Positions 2-29,947 of a stretch of DNA of 30,073 nt are shown in pieces. The notes beneath the pieces are model-generated. The model ran no database searches, was not told the origin of the DNA, and was given only the letters and a program-made list of their open reading frames with translations. The translations under genes were made by a program, and so were the position numbers. Location of the stretch: IMG/VR virus record IMGVR_UViG_3300005471_000041, positions 1 through 30,073 of that record. One strand, 5' to 3'. Each line of letters begins with the position of its first letter. The stretch's first letter is position 1. This DNA is from a virus.

Positions 2-238
2 AATAAGCCAACCGACGCATCGCGACTGGTGATTGATGCTAAGGAGGTACCGCGCTTTCCGGAGGACATCGTTGTTGCGATTCACCATCAGCTCAAACAA
101 ACGCGGACGGATGAATATGAGGCTAAGAAAAAGCCGAAGATTGTGAAGCGGGCAGCAGCTTCCAAAGCATCGACTGCCAAAAAATCGACGAAGAAAAAGT
201 CGTCAAAGAAAGCCCCGAAGCGCGGAGGGAAAAAATAA
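2..238 (+). CDS. Lys-rich C-terminal fragment, gene cut by window edge (possible PRTRC protein E tail)
   Basis: The reading frame is open to the left edge, so the true start lies outside the window; a GTG at 29 is only an internal possibility. The visible 78 residues have an ordinary first half. The last ~30 residues are dominated by Lys, Ala and Ser (runs such as KKSTKKKSSKK), like the basic tails of histone-H1-like or nucleic-acid-binding proteins. The stop overlaps the next ATG (TAATG), so the two genes are translationally coupled. In PRTRC cassettes the gene ahead of protein C is usually protein E, which can end in a Lys/Ala-rich tail. Assignment to E is by position only. Confidence 0.5.
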   Translation, partial: NKPTDASRLVIDAKEVPRFPEDIVVAIHHQLKQTRTDEYEAKKKPKIVKRAAASKASTAKKSTKKKSSKKAPKRGGKK

Positions 239-444
239 TGGGCGTCGTGCGTGTTGAGGGCAAACCGGTGACTGTTCCGGACGCCATTATCGAAGCGGGA
301 ACCGAAGCAATCAGAGCAGCGTTGTCGGTCGACTTTCCTGATCTCGAAAACGCAAAGATCACGATCGATACGGCAGGCCGAGCGCCGGCGATCGTTACCT
401 CGCGAAGCGCGACCGTTGTTAAGAGCGCAATGCCCAAAGGGTGA
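238..444 (+). CDS. Ubiquitin-like small protein, PRTRC system protein C family (Prok_Ub)
   Basis: This 68-residue protein resembles the PRTRC protein C family, placed in the prokaryotic ubiquitin-like group (Prok_Ub). It shows a short N-terminal beta pair (about residues 2-14), a helix (about 15-31), the family-like PDLENA stretch (about 34-39), then two more predicted strands. The C-terminus is Pro-Lys-Gly, and a terminal Gly is what an E1 enzyme adenylates in ubiquitin-like proteins. An E2-like protein and an E1/ThiF protein follow at 2189 and 2952, which is the decisive context. The ATG overlaps the previous stop by one base. The identification rests on pattern and neighbours, since similarity at this length is weak. 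An unrelated beta-grasp or hypothetical protein remains possible. Confidence 0.6.
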   Translation: MGVVRVEGKPVTVPDAIIEAGTEAIRAALSVDFPDLENAKITIDTAGRAPAIVTSRSATVVKSAMPKG

Positions 445-516
445 GACGGTTCTGACGGGCGCCCCGGCGGGAAGCGCAACCGAGGACGGAATGTTCACGG
501 GGTCTATGTTTGGGGG

Positions 517-834
517 TTGCGGCGTGAACGCGCAAAAGTTGGTGACGGGATCAAATTGGAAATCATTCTTGTGTGCGATCCGGTAGATCAGCAATGGCGA
601 GGAGCCTTCAAGTTGGATTACTGGACCACTGGCATGCGGGGCGGCTGTGGCTCGTTACCGTCAGAGCGAGACACGTCGTACCCAACTGAGCGCGATGTTC
701 GACAAGCCATGTACCTGGCAAGTCGTGGACGGTTGATTGAGGCTGCAAAGCTGCACCACACGGAGCCTTTAGTGAATCGATGTGTGAGGCGGCTCGATGA
801 TTGGGCGAGAAGAAGAGCATGCGAGATCTCTTAG
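517..834 (+). CDS. Hypothetical protein, 105 aa
   Basis: No family is recognised. The start is uncertain: a TTG at 517 gives 105 residues, and the frame stays open for some distance upstream without an ATG or GTG. A coding origin is supported by the overlap of its 3' end with the next gene (its TAG falls 13 bases after the ATG at 819) and by a plausible fold. That fold has a strand-rich first half with aromatic residues (FKLDYW) and a helical second half (RDVRQAMYLASRGRLIEAAKLHH). It lies between the ubiquitin-like gene and the E2/E1 pair, so it may be cassette cargo, but nothing visible gives a function. Confidence 0.5.
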   Translation: MRRERAKVGDGIKLEIILVCDPVDQQWRGAFKLDYWTTGMRGGCGSLPSERDTSYPTERDVRQAMYLASRGRLIEAAKLHHTEPLVNRCVRRLDDWARRRACEIS

Positions 835-1067
835 AAGCACTACTCAATGCGCCAGACTACGTCAACCCAGCGATTGCTTTAGCTCAGGAGTTGATGGAGG
901 CAGAAACGCGCGACGACAAAGAAACGATCGCGAGGCTCAGTCGCTCAGTCCGGATCGAGCACGCGATGATCGACGGCGAGGCGGAAGGCATGCGAGTCAT
1001 AGCTGCATTGGCGTCATGCGGTCACTCACCGCCGACAGCTTCAAAGACGGTGCCAGTCGGATTCTAA
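819..1067 (+). CDS. Hypothetical helical acidic protein, 82 aa
   Basis: The ATG at 819 is preceded by a purine-rich GAAGAAGAGC that can serve as a ribosome binding site. A TTG at 801 would add six residues. The first ~65 residues are predicted mostly helical and acidic (RDLLEALLNAPDYVNPAIAL, then ETRDDKETIARL). The tail contains no clear motif. It overlaps the previous gene by 16 bases and is followed after two bases by the next ATG, which fits a compact operon. No family recognised. Confidence 0.5.
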   Translation: MRDLLEALLNAPDYVNPAIALAQELMEAETRDDKETIARLSRSVRIEHAMIDGEAEGMRVIAALASCGHSPPTASKTVPVGF

Positions 1068-1069
1068 CG

Positions 1070-1324
1070 ATGCCCAGCTATCAAATCACTACTGCTCGCG
1101 CAGCATTTACCAAAGCGATCGCTGACCAGAGTTACGCGTGCGCCGGTCAATGCGGCCGCGCTATCGAAAAGGGTTCGGAGTATTTCACCAAGCCATTTCT
1201 CCGAAAAGGAAAAGTGGCGGGAGCTACGCGGCTGCACAACCTTGAAGGCTGTTGGGAATCGTACGACGACAAAGCCACTGATTCTTTGGCAACCCGAAGA
1301 GAGCTACGACGAGAGGGGCGATGA
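1070..1324 (+). CDS. Small Cys-containing protein, possible zinc-binding, 84 aa
   Basis: The ATG at 1070 was chosen because it follows the previous stop by two bases; the longer upstream frame overlaps two genes and is less likely. The sequence reads ...SYACAGQCGRAIEKGSEYF..., then a basic stretch, then HNLEGC. The spacing of two Cys, a later His and a last Cys resembles a small treble-clef or PARP-type zinc site in which Cys-x3-Cys is followed by a Gly-containing turn and an aromatic residue. Metal binding is inferred. The stop overlaps the next start (ATGA). Confidence 0.55.
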   Translation: MPSYQITTARAAFTKAIADQSYACAGQCGRAIEKGSEYFTKPFLRKGKVAGATRLHNLEGCWESYDDKATDSLATRRELRREGR

Positions 1325-2199
1325 TCAAAGCAACTCTTGAAGCATCTCGGATGTATCTCGCCACCCGCGCGCGTGCGCGAACGCCGCTCGGCGCCGCGGA
1401 GTTCCTGGATTACCACGCGACCCGCGAGCGCGAGAGTTTTGATAAGCGGCTGAGAATCACCTTGGAGTGCATGAAGATCTATCGGTTCGCTTTTCCACGC
1501 GAATATGCGCGCTCGGCCTCACCGTATTTTTCCGTTCAGCGCGAGCAGGAGCTCTATCGACTAATCAACACGAAACTGTTTCCTTTGATGTGGGGTGCAG
1601 GCTTTGACCTCGATGCGCACATCAATCGTGACCCACGTTTCTTTTTGCCAGTAATACCAGTCCGAGGATTGCAGCGTTACGTTTGGGAGCCAGGCTGTGT
1701 CGAGCTCGCGAAGGTTGGACCAGCATTCGGACTCGCGCTGGCCCTCCGTCAGTTTCCCGGAGCGTGGGAATTCATGGTTCAAGAATACGGCCTCACGGAT
1801 TGTCCCGATCCAGCGCCACCGCTGGCCGCGGTTGGTTGGACTCTTTACATGTACTCCTGTGCCGTTGAAGACAGCCCGCTTCGCTGGTTCCCGCGTGTGT
1901 TCGAAATGACGTCGTACAAAACCGGCAACACGTGGCTGGACTTACCTCCGATCGGATCCGTCGGCATGGAGTGGTCACTCGAGCAGGTAATGAAACTACA
2001 CCTCATGAAGTCGGCCGCGGTTGATCTGTCGATTGCCGTGACCGCGATCGCTGGCTATCTGGCGTTGGATCCAAAGCCACGAATCAAACGAGCAGTGGAG
2101 ATCTGGAATACGGCAGCGCTGAAAGAACTGCAATCAGGTTTCCAGGGCATGTGCATCGACGAAGAAACAAGGGAGTGGCATCCACAACATGAGCACTAA
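1321..2199 (+). CDS. Hypothetical 292-aa protein in the PRTRC cassette, positional candidate for PRTRC protein F
   Basis: The protein is rich in Trp, Tyr and Phe. About residues 10-60 are basic and helical; a central part (about 90-190) holds repeated aromatic and Pro positions; a helical part (about 205-265) ends in an acidic tail. There is no signal peptide or obvious catalytic motif. It sits directly ahead of the E2-like PRTRC B gene and overlaps it by 11 bases. In other PRTRC cassettes a protein of about this size (F) lies in the stretch before B. The PLAAVGWTLYMYS segment recalls the Trp-rich core of that family, but I cannot confirm homology. It should be read as an unknown cassette component. 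Confidence 0.5.
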   Translation: MIKATLEASRMYLATRARARTPLGAAEFLDYHATRERESFDKRLRITLECMKIYRFAFPREYARSASPYFSVQREQELYRLINTKLFPLMWGAGFDLDAHINRDPRFFLPVIPVRGLQRYVWEPGCVELAKVGPAFGLALALRQFPGAWEFMVQEYGLTDCPDPAPPLAAVGWTLYMYSCAVEDSPLRWFPRVFEMTSYKTGNTWLDLPPIGSVGMEWSLEQVMKLHLMKSAAVDLSIAVTAIAGYLALDPKPRIKRAVEIWNTAALKELQSGFQGMCIDEETREWHPQHEH

Positions 2200-2968
2200 T
2201 GAACGGCTGTTATCGACAGCCTTCGGACTAGACCAGAATCCGGCACTCGAGTTCATGGACGGACAGTTTCGTTTTCGAATGGTGAACTTAGAGGGCGCCG
2301 TTATCGAGCGCTGCATTTCCAGCGAGGCGGTGCGCGAAGCGTTTAGTGGCATCCCGGTCGATTCCGGCTGGTTGCCGCCCGGAATTGTGCGCTGGGGCAA
2401 TGGCAAGTTAGGCGAGTGGTGCGTTGCCTTCATCCCATCCGCGGTTCACGAGATTGAAATGACGCGCGAGCTGACTGCTGAAGACCGTGAGCGTGACACG
2501 GAACGCGGCCGAATGGCGGCTGATAATGCTGCCGCAATTAGTCGGGTCCGTGTAGCGTTGCCCGGCCTGGTGTTTTTCGGTCTCAGCAATCAGTACTACA
2601 TCTGGGCGGTCAAAACGGAGACGTTAAAACCTCACAACGAGATCTATCGCTGCCCGCTGCCAAACGTCGAAGAGACCGGGCTGATCTGCTGGGGTCCTTA
2701 TAACCCGCCGCGCTGCACAACGAAGTCGATCTCGGAAGCTTTCAAGCTCTTCATCAACAGCACCTTCAACAATCACCGTGCTGACGGAAAATCGAAACGC
2801 TTTCGTGAGGACGTGCGGTTGATGTTGACCGAGCTGGCTGCCGCCGGCGGGCCTTATCCAGTGGACGATCTCATGCGGCAGGTGCCACGAGTAGGTATCG
2901 CTCTCGACACGGCAATTCGCGAGTACTTTGAAACGGGGTGCATACGGACACATGAGCAGGCGCAGTAG
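2189..2968 (+). CDS. E2-like ubiquitin-conjugating protein, PRTRC system protein B family (Prok-E2_D)
   Basis: This 259-residue protein matches the PRTRC B pattern. An N-terminal region carries a WGNGKLGEWCVAF stretch (69-81). The core begins LPGLVFFGLSNQYYIWAVK (124-142), followed by CPLPNVEETGLICWG (155-169) and a helix with NSTFNNHRADGKSKRF. The central motif has the layout of a canonical E2 active site, Pro-Asn-Val then Gly-x-Val/Ile-Cys, which makes Cys167 the candidate thioester cysteine and Asn159 its conserved Asn. The family is assigned to prokaryotic E2 group D. Its role would be to receive the small Gly-ended protein from the ThiF protein encoded next and pass it to a target. It overlaps the E1 gene by 17 bases, so the two are probably co-translated. 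Confidence 0.8.
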   Translation: MSTNERLLSTAFGLDQNPALEFMDGQFRFRMVNLEGAVIERCISSEAVREAFSGIPVDSGWLPPGIVRWGNGKLGEWCVAFIPSAVHEIEMTRELTAEDRERDTERGRMAADNAAAISRVRVALPGLVFFGLSNQYYIWAVKTETLKPHNEIYRCPLPNVEETGLICWGPYNPPRCTTKSISEAFKLFINSTFNNHRADGKSKRFREDVRLMLTELAAAGGPYPVDDLMRQVPRVGIALDTAIREYFETGCIRTHEQAQ

Positions 2969-3971
2969 GAGAAACAAGCACAAATCAACGCATCTGGCGC
3001 AGCAGCAAAAACCTGCGCCGCTTCCAACAGCAGAGCCGACTCTGAACCTCGGATACGCGCAGGCCTCAAGAGTTGTGGCGCGAGATTTCCGGCGAGTGCA
3101 GATCGTCGTTGCCGGTTGCGGCGGGACAGGCGCGTACGTGGTCCAACACATCGGCCGCTTAATGCGAGTGCTGTACGACGATCAGCGCGGCGTCAATCTC
3201 GTGCTCGCGGATCCGGATGTTGTTGAGGAAAAGAACGTCGGCCGGCAGTTGTTCTGTGATGCCGAAGTCGGAGTGCCGAAGGCCATCGCGCTGGCGCGAC
3301 GTTACGGCCAGGCGTGGGGTCTCAACACGATGGCTTATCACGGCCAGTACACCGAGAACCTGTTACTCGATGAGATGGACCTCGCGATACTGGTGGGCTG
3401 TGTCGACAATGCTGCCGCGCGCGTGGCTCTTCACGAAACTCTACAACGTAATCCTAACCGCGTGACTCCGAACACGATGCCGCACCTCTGGTGGCTCGAC
3501 TGTGGCAACGCAAAAGATACCGGCCGCGTGTGTCTTGGATCGGCATACACGGACCACCAGGTGGAAGGCGCGTTTTACGGCAAGCACTGCATGGCCCTGC
3601 CATCGCCCGCGCTGCAGTATCCGGATCTGCTCATCCCCCAACGCGACGAACAGCCGGGCGCCGACATGAGCTGCGCCGAATTGCAGATGGCGAATCTCCA
3701 GTCGCTGAATATCAACGCAGCGATCGCGGTGCAGGCTGCCGACATGCTCACGCGTCTACTCGTGACGCACGACTTAAAACGTTATCAGTGCGCGGTGAAT
3801 CTCGCGTCGGGATCGGTGAAGTCGTTCTATTGCACTCCTGACGACGTGGCGCGTGAGATCGACCGCAGTGTTGAGTTTGTTACGTGTCAACCGGACGCGG
3901 TGCCAAGCATCGACGTCGCAAACAATGTAGTGCTGCAACACCTTTCGGAACTGAGGGAGGCAACAGCGTGA
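2952..3971 (+). CDS. E1-like adenylating enzyme, PRTRC system ThiF family
   Basis: This 339-residue protein starts at the ATG at 2952; a TTG at 2928 would add eight residues inside the previous gene. After a basic, disordered ~40 residues comes a Rossmann fold. It has a glycine-rich nucleotide loop GCGGTG (55-60), a strand ending in DPDVVEEKNVGRQ (87-99) with the Asp, Asn, Arg and Gln used by ThiF/MoeB/E1 enzymes for ATP and Mg, Lys110, and the CVDN motif (150-153). Candidate thioester cysteines are Cys241 (in a SCAEL segment followed by a long helix, the usual PRTRC-ThiF position), Cys184 and Cys194. It would adenylate the terminal Gly of the ubiquitin-like protein at 238-444. Its stop overlaps the next start (GTGA). 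Confidence 0.85.
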   Translation: MSRRSRRNKHKSTHLAQQQKPAPLPTAEPTLNLGYAQASRVVARDFRRVQIVVAGCGGTGAYVVQHIGRLMRVLYDDQRGVNLVLADPDVVEEKNVGRQLFCDAEVGVPKAIALARRYGQAWGLNTMAYHGQYTENLLLDEMDLAILVGCVDNAAARVALHETLQRNPNRVTPNTMPHLWWLDCGNAKDTGRVCLGSAYTDHQVEGAFYGKHCMALPSPALQYPDLLIPQRDEQPGADMSCAELQMANLQSLNINAAIAVQAADMLTRLLVTHDLKRYQCAVNLASGSVKSFYCTPDDVAREIDRSVEFVTCQPDAVPSIDVANNVVLQHLSELREATA

Positions 3972-4177
3972 GCAATTACGGAGTATGCAAGGCCCTCGAT
4001 GGTCAGCCGGTGGAGGGCACAACCGAAACGTTGGTCGCGCAACCGGGCTGTGTCTGTGACAACCCGATGGCCGCAATGTTCTGTCCCTTTGGACACATGC
4101 TCGAGTGTCATTATCCGATGAACTGTGTGGACGCCAATTGTTCACATCTACAGCGATACAGATCGGAGGAGGAATAG
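3968..4177 (+). CDS. Cys/His-rich 69-aa protein coupled to the E1 gene, possible binuclear zinc (RING-like) module
   Basis: The GTG at 3968 overlaps the E1 stop. The open frame runs further upstream inside the E1 gene, but the coupled GTG is the sensible start. The protein has seven Cys (7, 28, 30, 39, 47, 53, 58) and three His (43, 48, 60). The core is Cys-x-Cys, eight residues, Cys-x3-His-x3-Cys-His, then Cys-x4-Cys-x-His. That is enough ligands for two zinc ions, and the central Cys-x3-His-x3-Cys resembles the middle of a RING finger. Zinc binding is likely from composition. A role as an E3-like or substrate adaptor for the neighbouring E1/E2 pair is inference from context. A different small zinc ribbon is the main alternative. 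Confidence 0.65.
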   Translation: MSNYGVCKALDGQPVEGTTETLVAQPGCVCDNPMAAMFCPFGHMLECHYPMNCVDANCSHLQRYRSEEE

Positions 4178-5921: not shown

Positions 5922-6434
5922 ATGACGATGGCAGCACTTTCCCCCTTGTACCCTGCACCCAGCGAGGCGCGCGCCAAACGCAGCGGTGGCCGCGGCTTCT
6001 ACCGAGACAGGAACCTCCCCTACGCCGAAAGAAAAATTCAACGCACACCGAACTCGGAACAAGAACTGGGACACGAGCTAGCGATGCTCGCCGACCGCTT
6101 TCCTCAGTTTCGACACTCCCTGAATCAACTGCGTAATCATGTGCTGGTGCAGATGAAGCCGCGCTCCTGGAAGTATCAGAGAGTTTTCAGATGTTTGGGT
6201 GGGGAGCCGCTCTCGGTGGAAGAAATCATGGAGGAGACTGCGCGGGCGGGAAATCCGCGCCATCAATACGAGTCGGCCGGTGTCGAGCGAGCGGCTGTGC
6301 GGGAGATACTCCAGAGCCTTTGCGCCGAAGGCAAGGTAGAACAGTGTAACCATGATGGCGGCAAGCTCAGCGTTCGTCGCAATGGCAGACCTGTAGGAAG
6401 AGTTTACTGGCGGCTGGTGACCGAGAAATGTTGA
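5922..6434 (+). CDS. Hypothetical protein with winged-helix-like C-terminus, 170 aa
   Basis: The ATG at 5922 follows the previous stop directly. Another ATG two codons on is equally possible. The first ~60 residues are Arg- and Pro-rich and probably flexible. Residues ~85-165 look like a winged helix: LSVEEIMEETARAGN, then AAVREILQSLCAEGKVEQ, then a beta hairpin ending VGRVYWRLV. This is the pattern of a small DNA-binding domain used in phage replication initiators or regulators. No direct family match is seen, so DNA binding is inference. It overlaps the next gene by seven bases. Confidence 0.55.
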   Translation: MTMAALSPLYPAPSEARAKRSGGRGFYRDRNLPYAERKIQRTPNSEQELGHELAMLADRFPQFRHSLNQLRNHVLVQMKPRSWKYQRVFRCLGGEPLSVEEIMEETARAGNPRHQYESAGVERAAVREILQSLCAEGKVEQCNHDGGKLSVRRNGRPVGRVYWRLVTEKC

Positions 6435-7039
6435 GCGCGAAAGTCACGGTCAAAGTTCAAGGCAATAAAAACCTCGACAAGCAGACCAGATTTGCTATGG
6501 CGTCGAGTCTCACACTCACTGCGAAGGAGATCCAGGCCGCGACGATCAAAAAGATCGAGGGCTCGTTTACGATTCGCAACAACTGGAATAAGCCGTCGAA
6601 CGCCCTCGGCGTGCGCATTAAGCCAGCCACGAAAGAAAAGCTGGAAACCTGGATTGGTACGGCTGCCGAGTTTCTCCAGAAGTTTGTGCGTGAACCTGAA
6701 GGCTCGATTGTGCTGAAGCTTCCGCGCGGCGAGTTCATTGCCATTCCCACCAGCAACGTCCGTCGAACAAAGCGCGACATCATCCGTGCGACACAGCGGC
6801 CGCAGCGATTACGCGGCAAGCGAGACATCGTGTTGCCGATGAAGTCGGGAAGAGGCCTCGTGTTGTTTCAGGAGCAGGGCCGCGGTGTCAACGCGAAGCG
6901 TGTGGCGCTCTATCTGCTCGTGCCGCGCGCAAAGATTCGCGAGAAGGACGTGCTCTTTGGACCGGCCAAAACAGTGTTCCTGAATCGCTTCACGAAAATC
7001 TATGAAAACCAGTTGAGAAAGGCGTTTGCACCGCGATGA
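6428..7039 (+). CDS. Tail-completion / minor tail protein Z-like protein
   Basis: The 203-residue protein has the look of phage tail-completion proteins related to lambda gpZ: a helical start, NNWNKPSNALGVRIKPATKEKLETWI (~50-75), a beta region around LPRGEFIAIPTSNVRR, KSGRGLVLFQ, LYLLVPRAKI, and a final amphipathic helix FLNRFTKIYENQLRKAF. The order of Asn-Lys-Pro segment, lysine-rich substrate strand and C-terminal helix agrees with that group. Such proteins finish the proximal tail end or join tail to head. It lies ~2 kb ahead of the terminase genes, not in the tail module where lambda keeps Z. The stop overlaps the next ATG (ATGA). Confidence 0.55.
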   Translation: MLSAKVTVKVQGNKNLDKQTRFAMASSLTLTAKEIQAATIKKIEGSFTIRNNWNKPSNALGVRIKPATKEKLETWIGTAAEFLQKFVREPEGSIVLKLPRGEFIAIPTSNVRRTKRDIIRATQRPQRLRGKRDIVLPMKSGRGLVLFQEQGRGVNAKRVALYLLVPRAKIREKDVLFGPAKTVFLNRFTKIYENQLRKAFAPR

Positions 7040-7263: not shown

Positions 7264-7489
7264 ATGAGCGAAATCAGTAGACAGCGTCGCTTCGAGATTC
7301 TGGGGGAGCTCAAGGGCACGCTGTGTGTCTGCGGGACGCCCAAACGGCCCGATGACATCCCACTGCCGGAATTGCTATTACGCGTTGCCACCAGCAATGC
7401 GGGGAGCACTTTATCGTAAATTCGGCGCCGGCTATGAAGAGGCGTACGAAGAGTCAGTGAGGTTTTTACAGGAGCGCAAAGCATCGTGA
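7264..7489 (+). CDS. Small zinc-binding phage protein split by a +1 frameshift
   Basis: Two overlapping frames look like halves of one protein. The first (ATG 7264, stop 7417-7419) begins SEISRQRRFEILGELKGTLCVCGTPKRP and then turns into unlikely sequence. The second, in the +1 frame from about 7350, reads MTSHCRNCYYALPPAMRG, then LYRKFGAGYEEAYEESVRFL, and ends at 7489. Joined, they give a ~74-residue protein with Cys-x-Cys and Cys-x2-Cys knuckles and the basic/aromatic tail I associate with a recurring small phage zinc protein. The shift would occur around CGG CCC G (7345-7351). The last codons overlap the GTG of the next gene, so reaching that stop also couples translation. Programmed +1 shift, mutation and assembly error are all possible. 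Confidence 0.6.
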
Positions 7490-8046
7490 AGAACAACGGG
7501 AAACACGTCGGATGGAAAAACAGAATTGTCGGCCACGGTGAAAAGCCGGCAGTCGACTTCAGATTCAACCCACTCAACTATCGTCGTCATCCGGAAGAGC
7601 AGCGAGAGGCGGTGCGCAAGATGCTCGGTCTGGTTGGCTGGGTGACTGAGGTTATCGTCAATCGTCGCACCGGCAATTTGATTGATGGCCAGGCACGCAT
7701 TGAAGAGGCGCTGCGTCAGGACGATCAACAACACATCCCGTTCACGGAAGTCGATCTTTCCCTCGAGGAAGAGAAGGCCGTGCTCGCCACACTCGACCCG
7801 ATGACCGGTATGGCGGAGACGGACCAGGCGGTATTGGACCAGTTGTTGGCTGATACGCGAATTGAGATTCCCGAACTCGATGATCTGCTAATGGAGCTGC
7901 ATGAAGCGGCGCCGGCGCCGAAGAGTCGCACGGTTGAGTTCAAAGAACATCCACCACGAATCGTGATCGAGTGCAGGAGTAAACGCCAGCAGAAAGAGTT
8001 GCTGAAACGATTCGAAAACGAGGGGCTGCAAGCTACAGCTAAGTGA
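7486..8046 (+). CDS. ParB/sulfiredoxin-fold (ParB N-terminal-like) protein
   Basis: The 186-residue protein starts at a GTG overlapping the stop of the split zinc protein. It contains a ParB-N-like domain: FRFNPLNYRRHPEEQREAVRKMLGLVGWVTEVIVNRRTGNLIDGQARIEEAL (25-76) holds the Asn-Tyr-Arg-x-His segment, the GWV...VIVN strand and the family hallmark Asp-Gly-x-x-Arg (here IDGQARIE). It is followed by LSLEEEKAVLATLDPM (92-107), typical of phage versions found beside DNA methylases and terminases. No helix-turn-helix segregation domain is evident, so it is probably not a partition protein. It may act in DNA modification or as a nucleotide-dependent switch before packaging. No methylase gene is visible here. 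Confidence 0.75.
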   Translation: MKNNGKHVGWKNRIVGHGEKPAVDFRFNPLNYRRHPEEQREAVRKMLGLVGWVTEVIVNRRTGNLIDGQARIEEALRQDDQQHIPFTEVDLSLEEEKAVLATLDPMTGMAETDQAVLDQLLADTRIEIPELDDLLMELHEAAPAPKSRTVEFKEHPPRIVIECRSKRQQKELLKRFENEGLQATAK

Positions 8047-8545: not shown

Positions 8546-9061
8546 GTGGCGCAGACACCGAATAAAACACCAACTCAAAATCCGTTAGGCGACTGGGCCA
8601 ACAACCAGGCGCGGCAAGCAAACATCTCCGAGCTGCATCGTCTGTCAGGACGTGACCGTGCAACAATCGTGAAGTTGCTGGGTGCTGCGGGTGTGAAGCC
8701 GCTGCGAGTCTTCAAAAAGGAAACGTTCTACGATCAGAATGAGGCGATGGCGGTCCTTTCAAGTCCGAGCGGCGCAGTGGCGGATCCGGTTGGCATCCAT
8801 AAAGCGCGCGCACAAAAACTCAATGTCTCCACCGCGCGCGAGTTGCTGAAGCTGCAGCAGGAACGCGGCGAGCTTGTACCGATCGCCGACGTGCGCGAAC
8901 ACGTCTACAACTTCGTTAAGGCGATGCACGATCGCTTCAGGCGTTATGGCAAAGACGCCAGACGGACCCTCAAACTAACAGCCCAACAGGCAAGGCAGCA
9001 CGAAACCGATATCGCCATAATCTTCGATGATCTCAAGCGAGACTACCCCGAAATTAACTGA
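8546..9061 (+). CDS. Terminase small subunit
   Basis: The 171-residue protein starts at GTG 8546 and overlaps the large subunit gene by 35 bases. Residues ~27-60 form a helix-turn-helix (ISELHRLSGRDRATIVKLLGAAGVKPLR) of the kind used by lambda Nu1-type small subunits to bind the packaging site. A linker with KARAQKLNVSTARELLKLQQERGELVPIADVREHVYNFVKAMHDRF is typical of this group, where a charged helix then an 'ELVP' turn precede the oligomerisation helices. It selects the phage genome for packaging and loads the large subunit. The assignment is strong from fold, length and position before the large subunit. Confidence 0.8.
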   Translation: MAQTPNKTPTQNPLGDWANNQARQANISELHRLSGRDRATIVKLLGAAGVKPLRVFKKETFYDQNEAMAVLSSPSGAVADPVGIHKARAQKLNVSTARELLKLQQERGELVPIADVREHVYNFVKAMHDRFRRYGKDARRTLKLTAQQARQHETDIAIIFDDLKRDYPEIN

Positions 9062-11006
9062 CGGCAATCCGGTCGTCATCAACATCTTCAAAGAGGCGAT
9101 TCGCACCGCCATTCCTGACACGCTGCTCACGGTCAGCGAATGGGCGGATACCTATCGCTACGTTTCGCAGGGGCCGCGGCGCGGGCAGCGGTGGAAGATG
9201 TCAACCGTTCCGTACTTCATCGAGCCTCTCAACTGCATTACCGATCCAGGTGTTCGCCGAATCGTTCTTTGGTCCAGCTCGCGCGTCGGCAAGACGGAAG
9301 GCTTCCTGCTCAACGCATGCGGCTACTTCATGCACATCGACCCACTTCCAATAATGCAGCTCCGGCCGACGCTCGACGATGCAAAGCTATTTAGCCGCGA
9401 GCGCTTCAGCGCCTTCATTGAAGAATCGCCGGTGTTGCGGGACCTGGTCGATGACCCGCGCGCGCGCGACAGCGGGAACACGATGCTCTACAAAGACTTC
9501 CTGGGCGGGTACATATTTTTCGTTGGTTCGAACTCGTCGACGGGCTTGCGCGCTCAGGACTTCCGGCTGCTGCAGGCAGATGAAATTGATGACATGGCGG
9601 TGAATGCCGGCGGCCTTGGAGATCCGCTGGATGCCGCTGAAGTGCGCCTGCGCAACTTTGAAATGGAAGGCCTCGCGCTTTCGATGTACGCCTCGAGTCC
9701 GACAATCAAGGGCGAGTCGCGTATTGAAAAAGCATTTGCGGAGTCGGACCAGCGCCACTTCTACGTGCCATGTCTCGGCTGCGGTGAATACCAGGAACTG
9801 CTCTGGGAAAACATCGTGTGGACTGAGCTCGGCTTGCCCCCAAAGGAAGCTTGCTTCCTGTGCCCGATCTGCAAACACGTTGGCCACGAAGATGAGAAGG
9901 AAGAGATGGTGAGGCTCGGTGAATGGCGCGCGCACGCTAAGTCCGACGACACGCCGGGTTTCAAGCTGCTCGGAACTTACTCACCGTTCATCACATGGGG
10001 CGGGATGGCTGAGGCCTTCGTCAAAGCCAGACAATCGAAGTCCGACGAAAAGATGCAGGTGTGGGTTAACTCCACGCTGGGTGAGCTGTGGGAGCCTGGT
10101 GAGTATCTCGAGGAGCAGGAGTACACCTTTCACACGGAAGACTATGGCGGACCAGATAGCCCGTTTGATGTTCCCGCCAGCGCTACGTTCCTCACCTTTG
10201 GTGCCGACGTTCATCCCGATCGCATTGAAGTTGAAACACTCGCATGGGGTAGCCAGGAAGAAAACTGGTCGATCGATTACACAGTGCTACTCGGCAATCC
10301 GGAAGAATACCCGTCAGCGGTGTGGACCGAGTTCGAAGACTATCTCGAGAAGGATTGGCGCCACGAACTTGGCGTTCCGATGAACGTGAGCGCAGGAGCG
10401 ATCGACACGCGTGGTCATTGTACGGACGCCAGCTATAAGTTCGCGTACAAGCATCGTCACAAGAAGTGGTTTCCGATCGCCGGCGCTAACGTGGCCGGCA
10501 AGCCGATTGCTCCTCGCAAACCGTCGCTCGTTGGAAAGCCACGGATCAAGTTGCGCATCGTCGGAACTGAAGCCGCGAAGGATAGGGTCTCCGCAATGCT
10601 TCGTGTTGAGAATGAAGGACCTCGCTATTGCCACGTGCCCACACGGTATGACGAAGAGTGGTTCAAGCAGATGGATTCCGAGCGCCGCATCCGGACACGA
10701 AACAAGCGCGGCTTTTCCGTGTGGGTGTGGGAAAAGAAAAAGCCTGGCGCGCGCAATGAGGCGTGGGACTGCCGCGTGTATAACATCGTCGCCAAAGAGA
10801 TCTGGAATCCTAATGTGCCGGCTCTGCGCGAGCGTCTGCTCAAGTTAGTTGAGAGTCTGAAGACAGAGCGTGTCAAAATTGTAAAGCCGGACCCAGACCC
10901 CGATCCGACAGATGACGGCGAGACCGGCGGCAATCGCCCGCCGCTGCGCTCGCCCGCAAACTTTAGAAAGCCTCAGAGACGCGGTGGATTCATTAAGAAC
11001 TGGTGA
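9027..11006 (+). CDS. Terminase large subunit (lambda gpA-like)
   Basis: This 659-residue protein is the packaging motor and genome-cutting nuclease. The N-terminal ATPase has a modified Walker A, SSSRVGKT (83-90), a glutamine/threonine-rich adenine region before it, and Walker B LLQADEID (181-188). A zinc-knuckle-like insertion has Cys249, Cys252, Cys276, Cys279 and Cys282. The nuclease half starts with FGADVHPDRIEVE (Asp394 as metal ligand) and contains AIDTRGHCTDA. The C-terminal RRGGFIKNW resembles the lambda gpA end that contacts the portal. Length and motif order fit the gpA family. ATG at 9027 is the only reasonable start, within the small-subunit gene. Confidence 0.93.
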   Translation: MISSETTPKLTDGNPVVINIFKEAIRTAIPDTLLTVSEWADTYRYVSQGPRRGQRWKMSTVPYFIEPLNCITDPGVRRIVLWSSSRVGKTEGFLLNACGYFMHIDPLPIMQLRPTLDDAKLFSRERFSAFIEESPVLRDLVDDPRARDSGNTMLYKDFLGGYIFFVGSNSSTGLRAQDFRLLQADEIDDMAVNAGGLGDPLDAAEVRLRNFEMEGLALSMYASSPTIKGESRIEKAFAESDQRHFYVPCLGCGEYQELLWENIVWTELGLPPKEACFLCPICKHVGHEDEKEEMVRLGEWRAHAKSDDTPGFKLLGTYSPFITWGGMAEAFVKARQSKSDEKMQVWVNSTLGELWEPGEYLEEQEYTFHTEDYGGPDSPFDVPASATFLTFGADVHPDRIEVETLAWGSQEENWSIDYTVLLGNPEEYPSAVWTEFEDYLEKDWRHELGVPMNVSAGAIDTRGHCTDASYKFAYKHRHKKWFPIAGANVAGKPIAPRKPSLVGKPRIKLRIVGTEAAKDRVSAMLRVENEGPRYCHVPTRYDEEWFKQMDSERRIRTRNKRGFSVWVWEKKKPGARNEAWDCRVYNIVAKEIWNPNVPALRERLLKLVESLKTERVKIVKPDPDPDPTDDGETGGNRPPLRSPANFRKPQRRGGFIKNW

Positions 11007-28607: not shown

Positions 28608-29015
28608 ATGGATTGGTGGTTTTTGGTTGTTGGCGTTCTCGCGATTGTGCTGTGCGTTGGCGGTCCGTTTTTCATGGTTCCATCAGTCTTTCGGAACGTC
28701 CGTAATGTTTACGATCGACGTACTGGGAAGCGAACGCGCACGCAAAAGGCCTCCGCGTTGCTGTATCGATTTAGCAACCGTGCAATCGACGTGGATTATG
28801 ACAAGTCAGAGCAGGACGGCGACGGCATTTGTTTCTCGGCCCACCTCCGACTACCTCTACTAATGCGCCGGTTATCGTGCAGTCACGTTGGGTACTTGGA
28901 ATGGTGCCACCGCTGTGAGCGTCCAATCGGTCCCAAGATTCCTAATGTCCGATCTATCCCACCACCACCACCACCACCTGCGCCGGAGAGCAAACCCTCC
29001 AAAGGAGGTTATTGA
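28608..29015 (+). CDS. Single-span membrane protein with Pro-rich tail, 135 aa
   Basis: ATG 28608 is chosen because GGAGG (28597-28601) lies six bases upstream; the TTG at 28602 is less likely. Residues ~2-24 (WWFLVVGVLAIVLCVGGPFFMV) form one transmembrane helix. A basic region (RNVRNVYDRRTGKRTRTQKA) follows, which by the positive-inside rule puts the rest in the cytoplasm. The soluble part has CSHVGYLEWCHRCERPIG, a possible zinc site, then a run of Pro. The gene stops three bases after the AAAGGAGGT site of the AAA+ gene, so the two are coupled. Unknown family. Confidence 0.6.
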   Translation: MDWWFLVVGVLAIVLCVGGPFFMVPSVFRNVRNVYDRRTGKRTRTQKASALLYRFSNRAIDVDYDKSEQDGDGICFSAHLRLPLLMRRLSCSHVGYLEWCHRCERPIGPKIPNVRSIPPPPPPPAPESKPSKGGY

Positions 29016-29020
29016 TCACA

Positions 29021-29947
29021 ATGCCTTTAGCAAGACAGGCTCGAGGCCTGCGGCCGTTGATGTCACTGCCAACTTTGCCGGTATGTTTGTCTGTCGACGA
29101 TGTACCGCTGCCCGAGTCGTACGCCCCGCCGAGCTGGGCCACCGAGTTGATCAGTGAGTGGGAAAAGGAAAAAGAGTTGCATGCCGCCGGCGCTTATCCG
29201 ACTCAGTCAGTGTTGTTGCATGGACCGTCGGGTGTTGGAAAGACCACTGCAGCAAGGTGGCTTGCCAGGCATCTCAATCTTCCTTTAGTCACCATGCTTC
29301 TTTCAGCAATGGTTGACTCGTACCTCGGCGGCACCGGCAAGAACCTTGAGAAGGCCCTCCGTTTTGCGATGACCACGCCTTGCGTTCTTGTTATGGACGA
29401 GCTTGATGCCGTAGCTGGAACCCGTGAGGCTAAGCACCAGGACGTCGGTGAGATATGGCGTGTCACGAATACGTTCATTCAGTTGATGGACCAGTGGCAC
29501 GGTCAGCCTCGAAACTCACTCTTGGTTGGTACCACGAATCTCGTGAACGCGTTAGATACCGCCATCAGGCGGAGGTTCGAAAAGGAACTCCGGATGTCGA
29601 TGCCGACACAAAGGGAACTATCCGCTTTGGCTGGAGTAGCGGTGCCGACGGACCTTGTAATCAGTCACGCTGATATGCGCCGGCTGGTGCTGCAAGCGCG
29701 TCGACAATCCGTTGTACACAGCTTGGACTATGGCCTCGCTTTAACAGCCTTGATTTCGTCGGTTCCAAAGACTGAGGGCCATGAGAGATCGGCGGCAGGG
29801 GGCAGTGGGTTGACCCTGGCTGAAGTCGAAAAGCAACACATTCTCAGCGTGCTCGGAGCATGTGGTAACAACCAGGTTAGGGCGGCGCGCGTGCTCGAGA
29901 TCGACCGCTCAAAGCTTCAGCGCCGTTTGCGAGATTACAGATCGTAG
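29021..29947 (+). CDS. AAA+ ATPase fused to a Fis-type helix-turn-helix
   Basis: ATG 29021 follows the strong Shine-Dalgarno AAAGGAGGT (29001-29009); a TTG at 29012 is too close to it. The 308-residue protein has a classical AAA+ module: Walker A GPSGVGKT (68-75), Walker B VLVMDELD (122-129), sensor-1 LLVGTTN (167-173) and candidate Arg finger in AIRRRFEKEL (181-190), of the FtsH/CDC48/RarA-like style. There is no GAFTGA loop, so it is not a sigma-54 activator. Yet the C-terminal ~45 residues (LAEVEKQHILSVLGACGNNQVRAARVLEIDRSKLQRRLR) are a Fis/NtrC-type DNA-binding domain. It may be a DNA-targeted ATP-driven remodeler or a transcription regulator. It is coupled to the membrane-protein gene before it. 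Confidence 0.85.
   Translation: MPLARQARGLRPLMSLPTLPVCLSVDDVPLPESYAPPSWATELISEWEKEKELHAAGAYPTQSVLLHGPSGVGKTTAARWLARHLNLPLVTMLLSAMVDSYLGGTGKNLEKALRFAMTTPCVLVMDELDAVAGTREAKHQDVGEIWRVTNTFIQLMDQWHGQPRNSLLVGTTNLVNALDTAIRRRFEKELRMSMPTQRELSALAGVAVPTDLVISHADMRRLVLQARRQSVVHSLDYGLALTALISSVPKTEGHERSAAGGSGLTLAEVEKQHILSVLGACGNNQVRAARVLEIDRSKLQRRLRDYRS

Follow-up and report, generated by a model that had tools for sequence, protein, structure and literature searches.

The window analysed here is the entire IMG/VR virus record IMGVR_UViG_3300005471_000041 (30,073 bases), which starts at the tail of a gene and is probably a fragment; related phage sequences span 37-71 kb as compared with the 30 kb of the window, indicating that part of this phage is missing. 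At its left end the window carries a cassette of genes encoding a ubiquitin-like protein (Ubl), a putative E2-type conjugating enzyme and a putative E1-type activating enzyme of the PRTRC type. An earlier note, prepared from the letters of the window, had described a small protein ending in glycine, an E2-type protein with an active-site cysteine (Cys167) and an E1/ThiF protein with nucleotide-binding motifs, the genes of the latter two overlapping by 17 bases, and had regarded the trio as PRTRC-type and as part of a tailed-phage genome. All of this was borne out by profile matches, conserved residues and synteny in other phage contigs. Two further proteins encoded between the Ubl and E2 genes, here termed the PxGF protein and Fx, had been overlooked, and each of them is kept in 9/9 close phage relatives. 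The cassette comprises the following open reading frames (ORFs):

238..444, + strand: Ubl of the PRTRC C / Prok_Ub type, 68 aa, an ORF starting with ATG and ending in ...MPKG
819..1067, + strand: PxGF protein, 82 aa, with the C-terminus VPVGF; ATG at 819, with TTG at 801 as a possible start
1321..2199, + strand: Fx, a conserved all-helical protein of 292 aa in the slot of PRTRC F
2189..2968, + strand: E2-like conjugating enzyme, Prok-E2_D (PRTRC B-like), with a match to PF14460 and Cys167
2952..3971, + strand: E1-like activating enzyme of the PRTRC ThiF family, with Cys241 as candidate catalytic residue

Of the profile checks proposed in the earlier note, those of 2189-2968 against PF14460 and of 2952-3971 against PF00899 were positive, whereas the 238-444 product gave no direct match with Pfam or NCBIfam models. 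A profile was built from 39 Ubls of the Prok_Ub/PRTRC C types, all from outside the window's clade, and 238-444 was its sole significant match among the 368 ORFs of the window (E 5.7e-7). The final Lys-Gly (K67 and G68) is invariant across 47 aligned Ubls, and close phage relatives have Ubls that share 42-63% identity with that of the window. An AlphaFold model of the 68-aa protein shows a beta-beta-alpha-beta start at low confidence (predicted local distance difference test score, pLDDT, of 61). A fold search from this weak model was uninformative, and a sequence search of PDB with the Ubl gave no match. The Ubl fold and family membership of 238-444 are predicted from homology and sequence profiles, the AlphaFold model being too weak to serve as support.

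The 2189-2968 product matched Prok-E2_D (PF14460) with an E value of 7e-19 and 68.6 bits (cutoff 25), and scored 51 bits against TIGR03737 (PRTRC_B), for which the cutoff is 131.45. It carries PNVEETGLICWG and Cys167, and the active-site Cys is invariant in 71/71 aligned homologues; a sequence search of PDB with E2 gave no match. The 2952-3971 product matched ThiF (PF00899, 1.2e-10) and lies above the curated cutoff of PRTRC_ThiF (TIGR03736; 148.5 vs 144.75 bits). The nucleotide-binding residues (GxGGxG, Asp, Arg, Gln and Lys) as well as Cys241 are retained in the E1 homologues. The 17 bases shared by the E2 and E1 genes (2952-2968) are located where relatives have a gene for a JAB protease.

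The missing JAB, listed in the earlier note as an absence, proved on comparison to be the most informative feature of the cassette. No JAMM motif fitting the JAB pattern was found in coding context in the six frames of the window, and a JAB profile search of the whole record gave no match. In L007-L010, L016, L017 and L050, a PRTRC A-like JAB gene with the motif HSH...S..D is located between E2 and E1. JAB was also not found in the whole records of two further loci, L015 and L056. The Ubl stops exactly at PKG in the window and at TPKG in L015, whereas the Ubls of JAB-bearing members of the clade continue beyond the glycine. Further JAB-less loci were obtained from a Chloroflexota clade (L086-L088, L091, L092), from Pseudomonas megaplasmids and plasmids (L104, L113, L125, L129) and from Aeromonas (L109), Vibrio (L110), Alteromonas (L124) and Deinococcus (L115). 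JAB was found neither in the metagenome-assembled genomes (MAGs) of the Chloroflexota clade nor in five complete plasmids, the search of the Vibrio plasmid yielding one spurious match full of stops. In these JAB-less bacterial and plasmid loci, every Ubl ends exactly at the glycine.

The presence of JAB and the state of the Ubl tail were scored in 78 loci. JAB was accompanied by an extended Ubl in 56 loci and by a Ubl ending at the glycine in 8, while the JAB-less loci comprised 14 with a Ubl ending at the glycine and 0 with an extended one (Fisher p 3e-10, a value inflated by kinship). L056, the Ubl of which ends in TTKH without a glycine, was left out of this table, and L066 and L074, in which no Ubl was found, were unscored. 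On the tree of E2 and E1 the JAB state changed independently at least three times on supported branches and five times on the best tree. Where independent pairs were compared, the Ubl tail changed along with JAB in an average of 2.5 out of 3, and no pair showed the opposite direction. This pattern is as expected if extended Ubls require JAB for maturation and a Ubl that is already trimmed makes JAB dispensable, and the JAB-bearing loci with trimmed Ubls suggest a second role of JAB, presumably deconjugation. A role of JAB in both Ubl processing and deconjugation was predicted by Iyer et al. (2006; PMC1779556), and the closest experimental precedent is BilC, a JAB enzyme that cuts BilA and thereby frees its glycine (PMC11354881). 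Natural JAB-less versions with a modifier ending at glycine, present in phages, plasmids and bacteria, are what the maturation role predicts. The association of JAB and tail makes the twenty-year-old prediction directly testable, and the JAB-less versions offer a minimal three-gene system for it.

The cassette lies in a phage genome, and the following features to its left and right were considered:

2..238, + strand: last part (C-terminus) of the gene preceding the cassette, truncated at the edge of the contig
3968..4177, + strand: small Cys-rich protein next to E1, with a homologue in L015 only (1/9 close relatives)
9027..11006, + strand: terminase large subunit (TerL; phrog_15, E 8e-194), the phage hallmark for the synteny test

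Rightwards from 8.5 kb, genes for terminase, head-tail joining, portal, major capsid, major tail, tape measure and fibre proteins follow, which like the cassette are all on the + strand. The terminase, portal, major capsid and tail genes keep a conserved order, which places the window in a tailed phage (Caudoviricetes). TerL homologues that are 33-63% identical were found on the cassette-bearing contigs of six close relatives. Moreover, the ORFs of the window are mostly collinear with their homologues in G007 (41.3 kb) and G001 over nearly the whole length, from the Ubl through terminase, portal, capsid and tape measure to the fibre. This collinearity rules out that the left 4 kb is an assembly join, which the earlier note had named as a finding that would overturn its reading. 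In G007 two JAB halves are located at opposite ends of the contig, which suggests a circularly permuted, near-complete genome; over the bare end-to-end join the reading frame is interrupted.

The gene upstream of the cassette encodes in relatives a protein of 327-1023 aa with weak ParB-like similarity. The part present in the window (2-238) matched the upstream genes of L050, L009 and L053 with phmmer E values of 3e-8 to 3e-7, matches to which the Lys/Ala-rich composition of the tail of its product may contribute. Alignment of the upstream family with residues 17-101 of PRTRC ParB, the expected ParB region, was weak (hhalign E 0.0077), and a true ParB gene is located upstream of the cassette in L010.

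To find related loci, a single-sequence search of viral contigs with E2 gave nothing, and alignments of ThiF and E2 were needed as queries. With the E1 and E2 alignments, 42 and 13 viral loci, respectively, were obtained, the two sets overlapping, together with 39 loci in genomes. Across phages, plasmids and genomes, about 55 loci have the order Ubl(-PxGF)-Fx-E2-JAB-E1. The genome loci, some of which are plasmids, come from hosts that include Chloroflexota, Cyanobacteriota and Acidobacteriota. For L009 and L050 the ratios of nonsynonymous to synonymous substitution rates (dN/dS) were 0.01 for the Ubl core (65 codons), 0.11 for E1, 0.14 for Fx, 0.17 for PxGF, 0.22 for JAB and 0.31 for E2, as compared with 0.27 for TerL. 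These low ratios imply that the cassette is maintained by selection. Judged from this codon comparison, the selection is purifying and acts most strongly on the Ubl, as it does on ubiquitin. Compact pairs of E2 and E1 genes that form a distant family of their own (L011, L012, L013, L093) were found in viral contigs and in a MAG labelled Deltaproteobacteria; no JAB was detected with these pairs by the profiles used.

Comparable sets are present in cultured phages. Burkholderia phage BgVeeders33 (OK665841), a cultured phage of 33 kb, carries a PRTRC C, E2, JAB and ThiF set (L003:2782-6705) that is annotated mostly as hypothetical proteins and the Ubl of which matches Prok_Ub with 1.8e-27. In Vibrio phage D69 (OZ195729), three tandem Ubl repeats, each ending in GTKG, are encoded in one gene (L004:2385-3176), followed by E2, JAB and E1 genes; from this arrangement the Ubl gene is predicted to encode a phage poly-Ubl precursor. 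D148 and D181 have the same E1 as D69. Salmonella phage Arash (OQ632216) contains an unannotated ORF (L005:107-307) for a 66-aa Ubl ending in GTKG, which overlaps the annotated gp251 in a different frame, and its gp246, gp247 and gp248 were identified as E1, JAB and E2. In the virion proteome of Arash, Gp246, Gp247 and Gp248 are represented by 95, 430 and 369 spectra, and its authors stated that abundant enzymes may merely be carried along with the virions (PMC10585845). This proteome was rejected as a sign of Ubl in the particles, as the listed gp251 differs in frame from the Ubl ORF, a mismatch that calls for care with the proteome table. Like the window, BgVeeders33, Arash and D69 have Ubl, E2 and E1 close together; unlike the window, they possess JAB and belong to other phage lineages, and D69 has three Ubl repeats in tandem. 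In some phages, cultured ones included, Ubl-conjugation cassettes are thus conserved as part of the genome, and their targets can be sought experimentally. A literature search missing most subscription journals found no paper on PRTRC-type cassettes in phages.

Fx was found in about 65 loci, and its AlphaFold model is of high confidence (pLDDT 89.4). Fold searches of PDB and of the viral library BFVD returned best E values of 2.2 and 0.32, which are meaningless. The possibility that Fx is a divergent PRTRC F or E was examined, and the comparisons gave no support for it; no similarity to canonical PRTRC F was found. Two tandem Fx paralogues per cassette are present in L030, L031 and L033. The PxGF protein has no family in Pfam or PHROGs. 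It is free-standing in the window, whereas in many relatives it forms the C-terminal part of a fusion with the Ubl, the fused Ubl-PxGF proteins being ~144 aa long with the junction at Lys-Gly. Between the Ubl and PxGF genes of the JAB-less relative L015 (~6140-6660), an HExxH protein is encoded (PhageMetallopep PF18894, E 1e-15).

The genes with their intact catalytic residues, their synteny, the loss of JAB and the association of this loss with a pre-trimmed Ubl were all observed, and we consider it probable that the window holds a phage-borne PRTRC-type Ubl-conjugation cassette that works without a protease of its own. In the proposed mechanism, the Ubl would be mature as soon as it is synthesised, its C-terminal Gly68 being free from the start. 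Its adenylation by the ThiF-type E1 would be followed by formation of a thioester, for which Cys241 is the likely site, and the Ubl would be transferred to Cys167 of E2 and from there to an amine of a target protein. Fx and the PxGF protein might serve as adaptor or regulatory subunits. Most relatives would make a Ubl precursor (Ubl-Gly-PxGF or Ubl-Gly-tail), which JAB is expected to cut. In the window, with the JAB gene gone and the Ubl stopping at the glycine, maturation would be unnecessary and the tag would be removable by no enzyme of the cassette. Tentatively, it could be envisaged that a dedicated Ubl system serves tailed phages during infection to tag host proteins, proteins of rivals or those of the phage particle itself, and that here, with the protease lost and the tag pre-trimmed, the tag is permanent. 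Interference with host or rival elements, maintenance of the element and modification of the phage's own proteins may be among the roles of such a system.

Several points weigh against a conjugation system that functions without a protease. Catalysis, conjugation, irreversibility and targets are what we infer from the genes, and the AlphaFold model of the Ubl is poor (pLDDT 61). The Ubl of the JAB-less L056 (7848-8057) ends in TTKH and has no terminal glycine; its E2 retains the active-site cysteine, and this system may be non-functional or work differently. In the 8 JAB-bearing loci with Ubls that end at glycine, JAB would need to have another role. Three independent pairs are too few for a significant tree-corrected sign test, and after addition of further plasmids the independent JAB changes were still too few for significance. 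Finally, with relatives of 37-71 kb, a JAB encoded elsewhere in this phage, beyond the 30 kb, is conceivable.

In comparison with known systems, the cassette is closest to the PRTRC type (operon type 6d; Iyer et al., 2006, PMC1779556), of which it represents a non-canonical, JAB-less branch in a tailed phage. Shared with PRTRC operons are the profile-predicted Ubl with its conserved Gly, the Prok-E2_D E2, the ThiF E1, the gene order, a helical protein between Ubl and E2 and, at weak similarity, a ParB-like gene upstream. The window differs by the missing JAB (PRTRC A), although some plasmid PRTRC operons are also JAB-less, by Fx, which replaces PRTRC F without detectable similarity, by the extra PxGF protein, by an E2 below the PRTRC_B cutoff and by its location in a tailed phage. 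No PRTRC E was found in the record, the left edge of which lies at the end of the preceding gene, encoding a different large protein in relatives. No PRTRC D was detected in an NCBIfam scan of the ten leftmost ORFs, a scan made without a dedicated protein D model.

With the Bil system (BilABCD), in which a JAB matures the Ubl before conjugation (PMC11354881), the window shares Ubl, E2 and E1. However, BilA has two Ubl domains instead of the single 68-aa domain, the BilD E1 is larger and has an inactive adenylation domain, and the window lacks JAB. The E1 of the window gave a weak local match with BilD (E 6.5e-6, 88 residues), and its E2 gave none with the BilB E2 model. CBASS Cap2/Cap3 shares E1-E2-type conjugation in the conflict of phages and bacteria, with removal of the JAB type (PMC10097602). 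Cap2 unites the E1 and E2 domains in a single polypeptide and cGAS is what becomes conjugated, whereas the window has separate E1 and E2 genes and a dedicated Ubl, and only partial E1-E2 matches were obtained.

Both Bil and CBASS are Ubl-conjugation systems of anti-phage defence (PMC10097602, PMC11354881). The window cassette might similarly act in defence or superinfection exclusion by attaching the Ubl to structural proteins of rival phages, as Bil does in bacteria. We regard this role as possible but rather unlikely: the E1 has weak local similarity to the PADLOC E1-E2 and BilD models, but E2, JAB, Ubl and Fx are without a PADLOC match, and the carriers of the cassette are phages and plasmids. 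Similarly doubtful is a role in maintenance of the replicon, as presumed for PRTRC plasmids, in which the Ubl would tag the element's ParB or its replication proteins and be used in replication or in a phage-plasmid state. Such a role would agree with the ParB at the start of canonical PRTRC operons, with the ParB gene upstream in L010 and the weakly ParB-like gene in the window's clade, and with the circularly permuted appearance of G007. However, ParB similarity is weak in the window's clade, and a plasmid replication or partition pair was not found among the genes of the window.

That the window, L015 and L056 contain decaying remnants, with JAB lost and the system on its way out, is improbable. 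The JAB loss itself and the L056 Ubl without terminal glycine would be in line with decay, but the other genes of the window and L015 are intact and have kept their catalytic residues at 46-62% identity, KG is exactly where the Ubl ends, and entire clades of bacteria and plasmids have retained JAB-less forms. A sulfur-carrier or cofactor/peptide pathway (ThiS-ThiF, MoaD-MoeB or MccB-like) in place of protein conjugation is very improbable, for although such pathways use ThiF domains and the solved structures closest to the E1 profile are MccB, UBA6 and ThiF, the operon has a dedicated Prok-E2_D with an invariant Cys, relatives have a JAB isopeptidase, and the scanned neighbours included neither a rhodanese nor a biosynthetic enzyme.

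Three further genes of the window lie outside the proposed conjugation cassette. The Cys-rich protein (3968-4177), which the earlier note had counted as a zinc protein and fourth member of the cassette, was rejected as such, as it recurs in only L015 of the nine close relatives; family searches with it were without match. At the right end of the window, 29012-29947 encodes an AAA ATPase (PF00004, 3e-27) with a C-terminal Fis-type helix-turn-helix, which has no counterpart in G007 or G001. The product of 7486-8046 is similar to phage ParB-like and methyltransferase-linked families (phrog_620, phrog_498) and is ~71-74% identical to its homologues in L009, L050 and G007.

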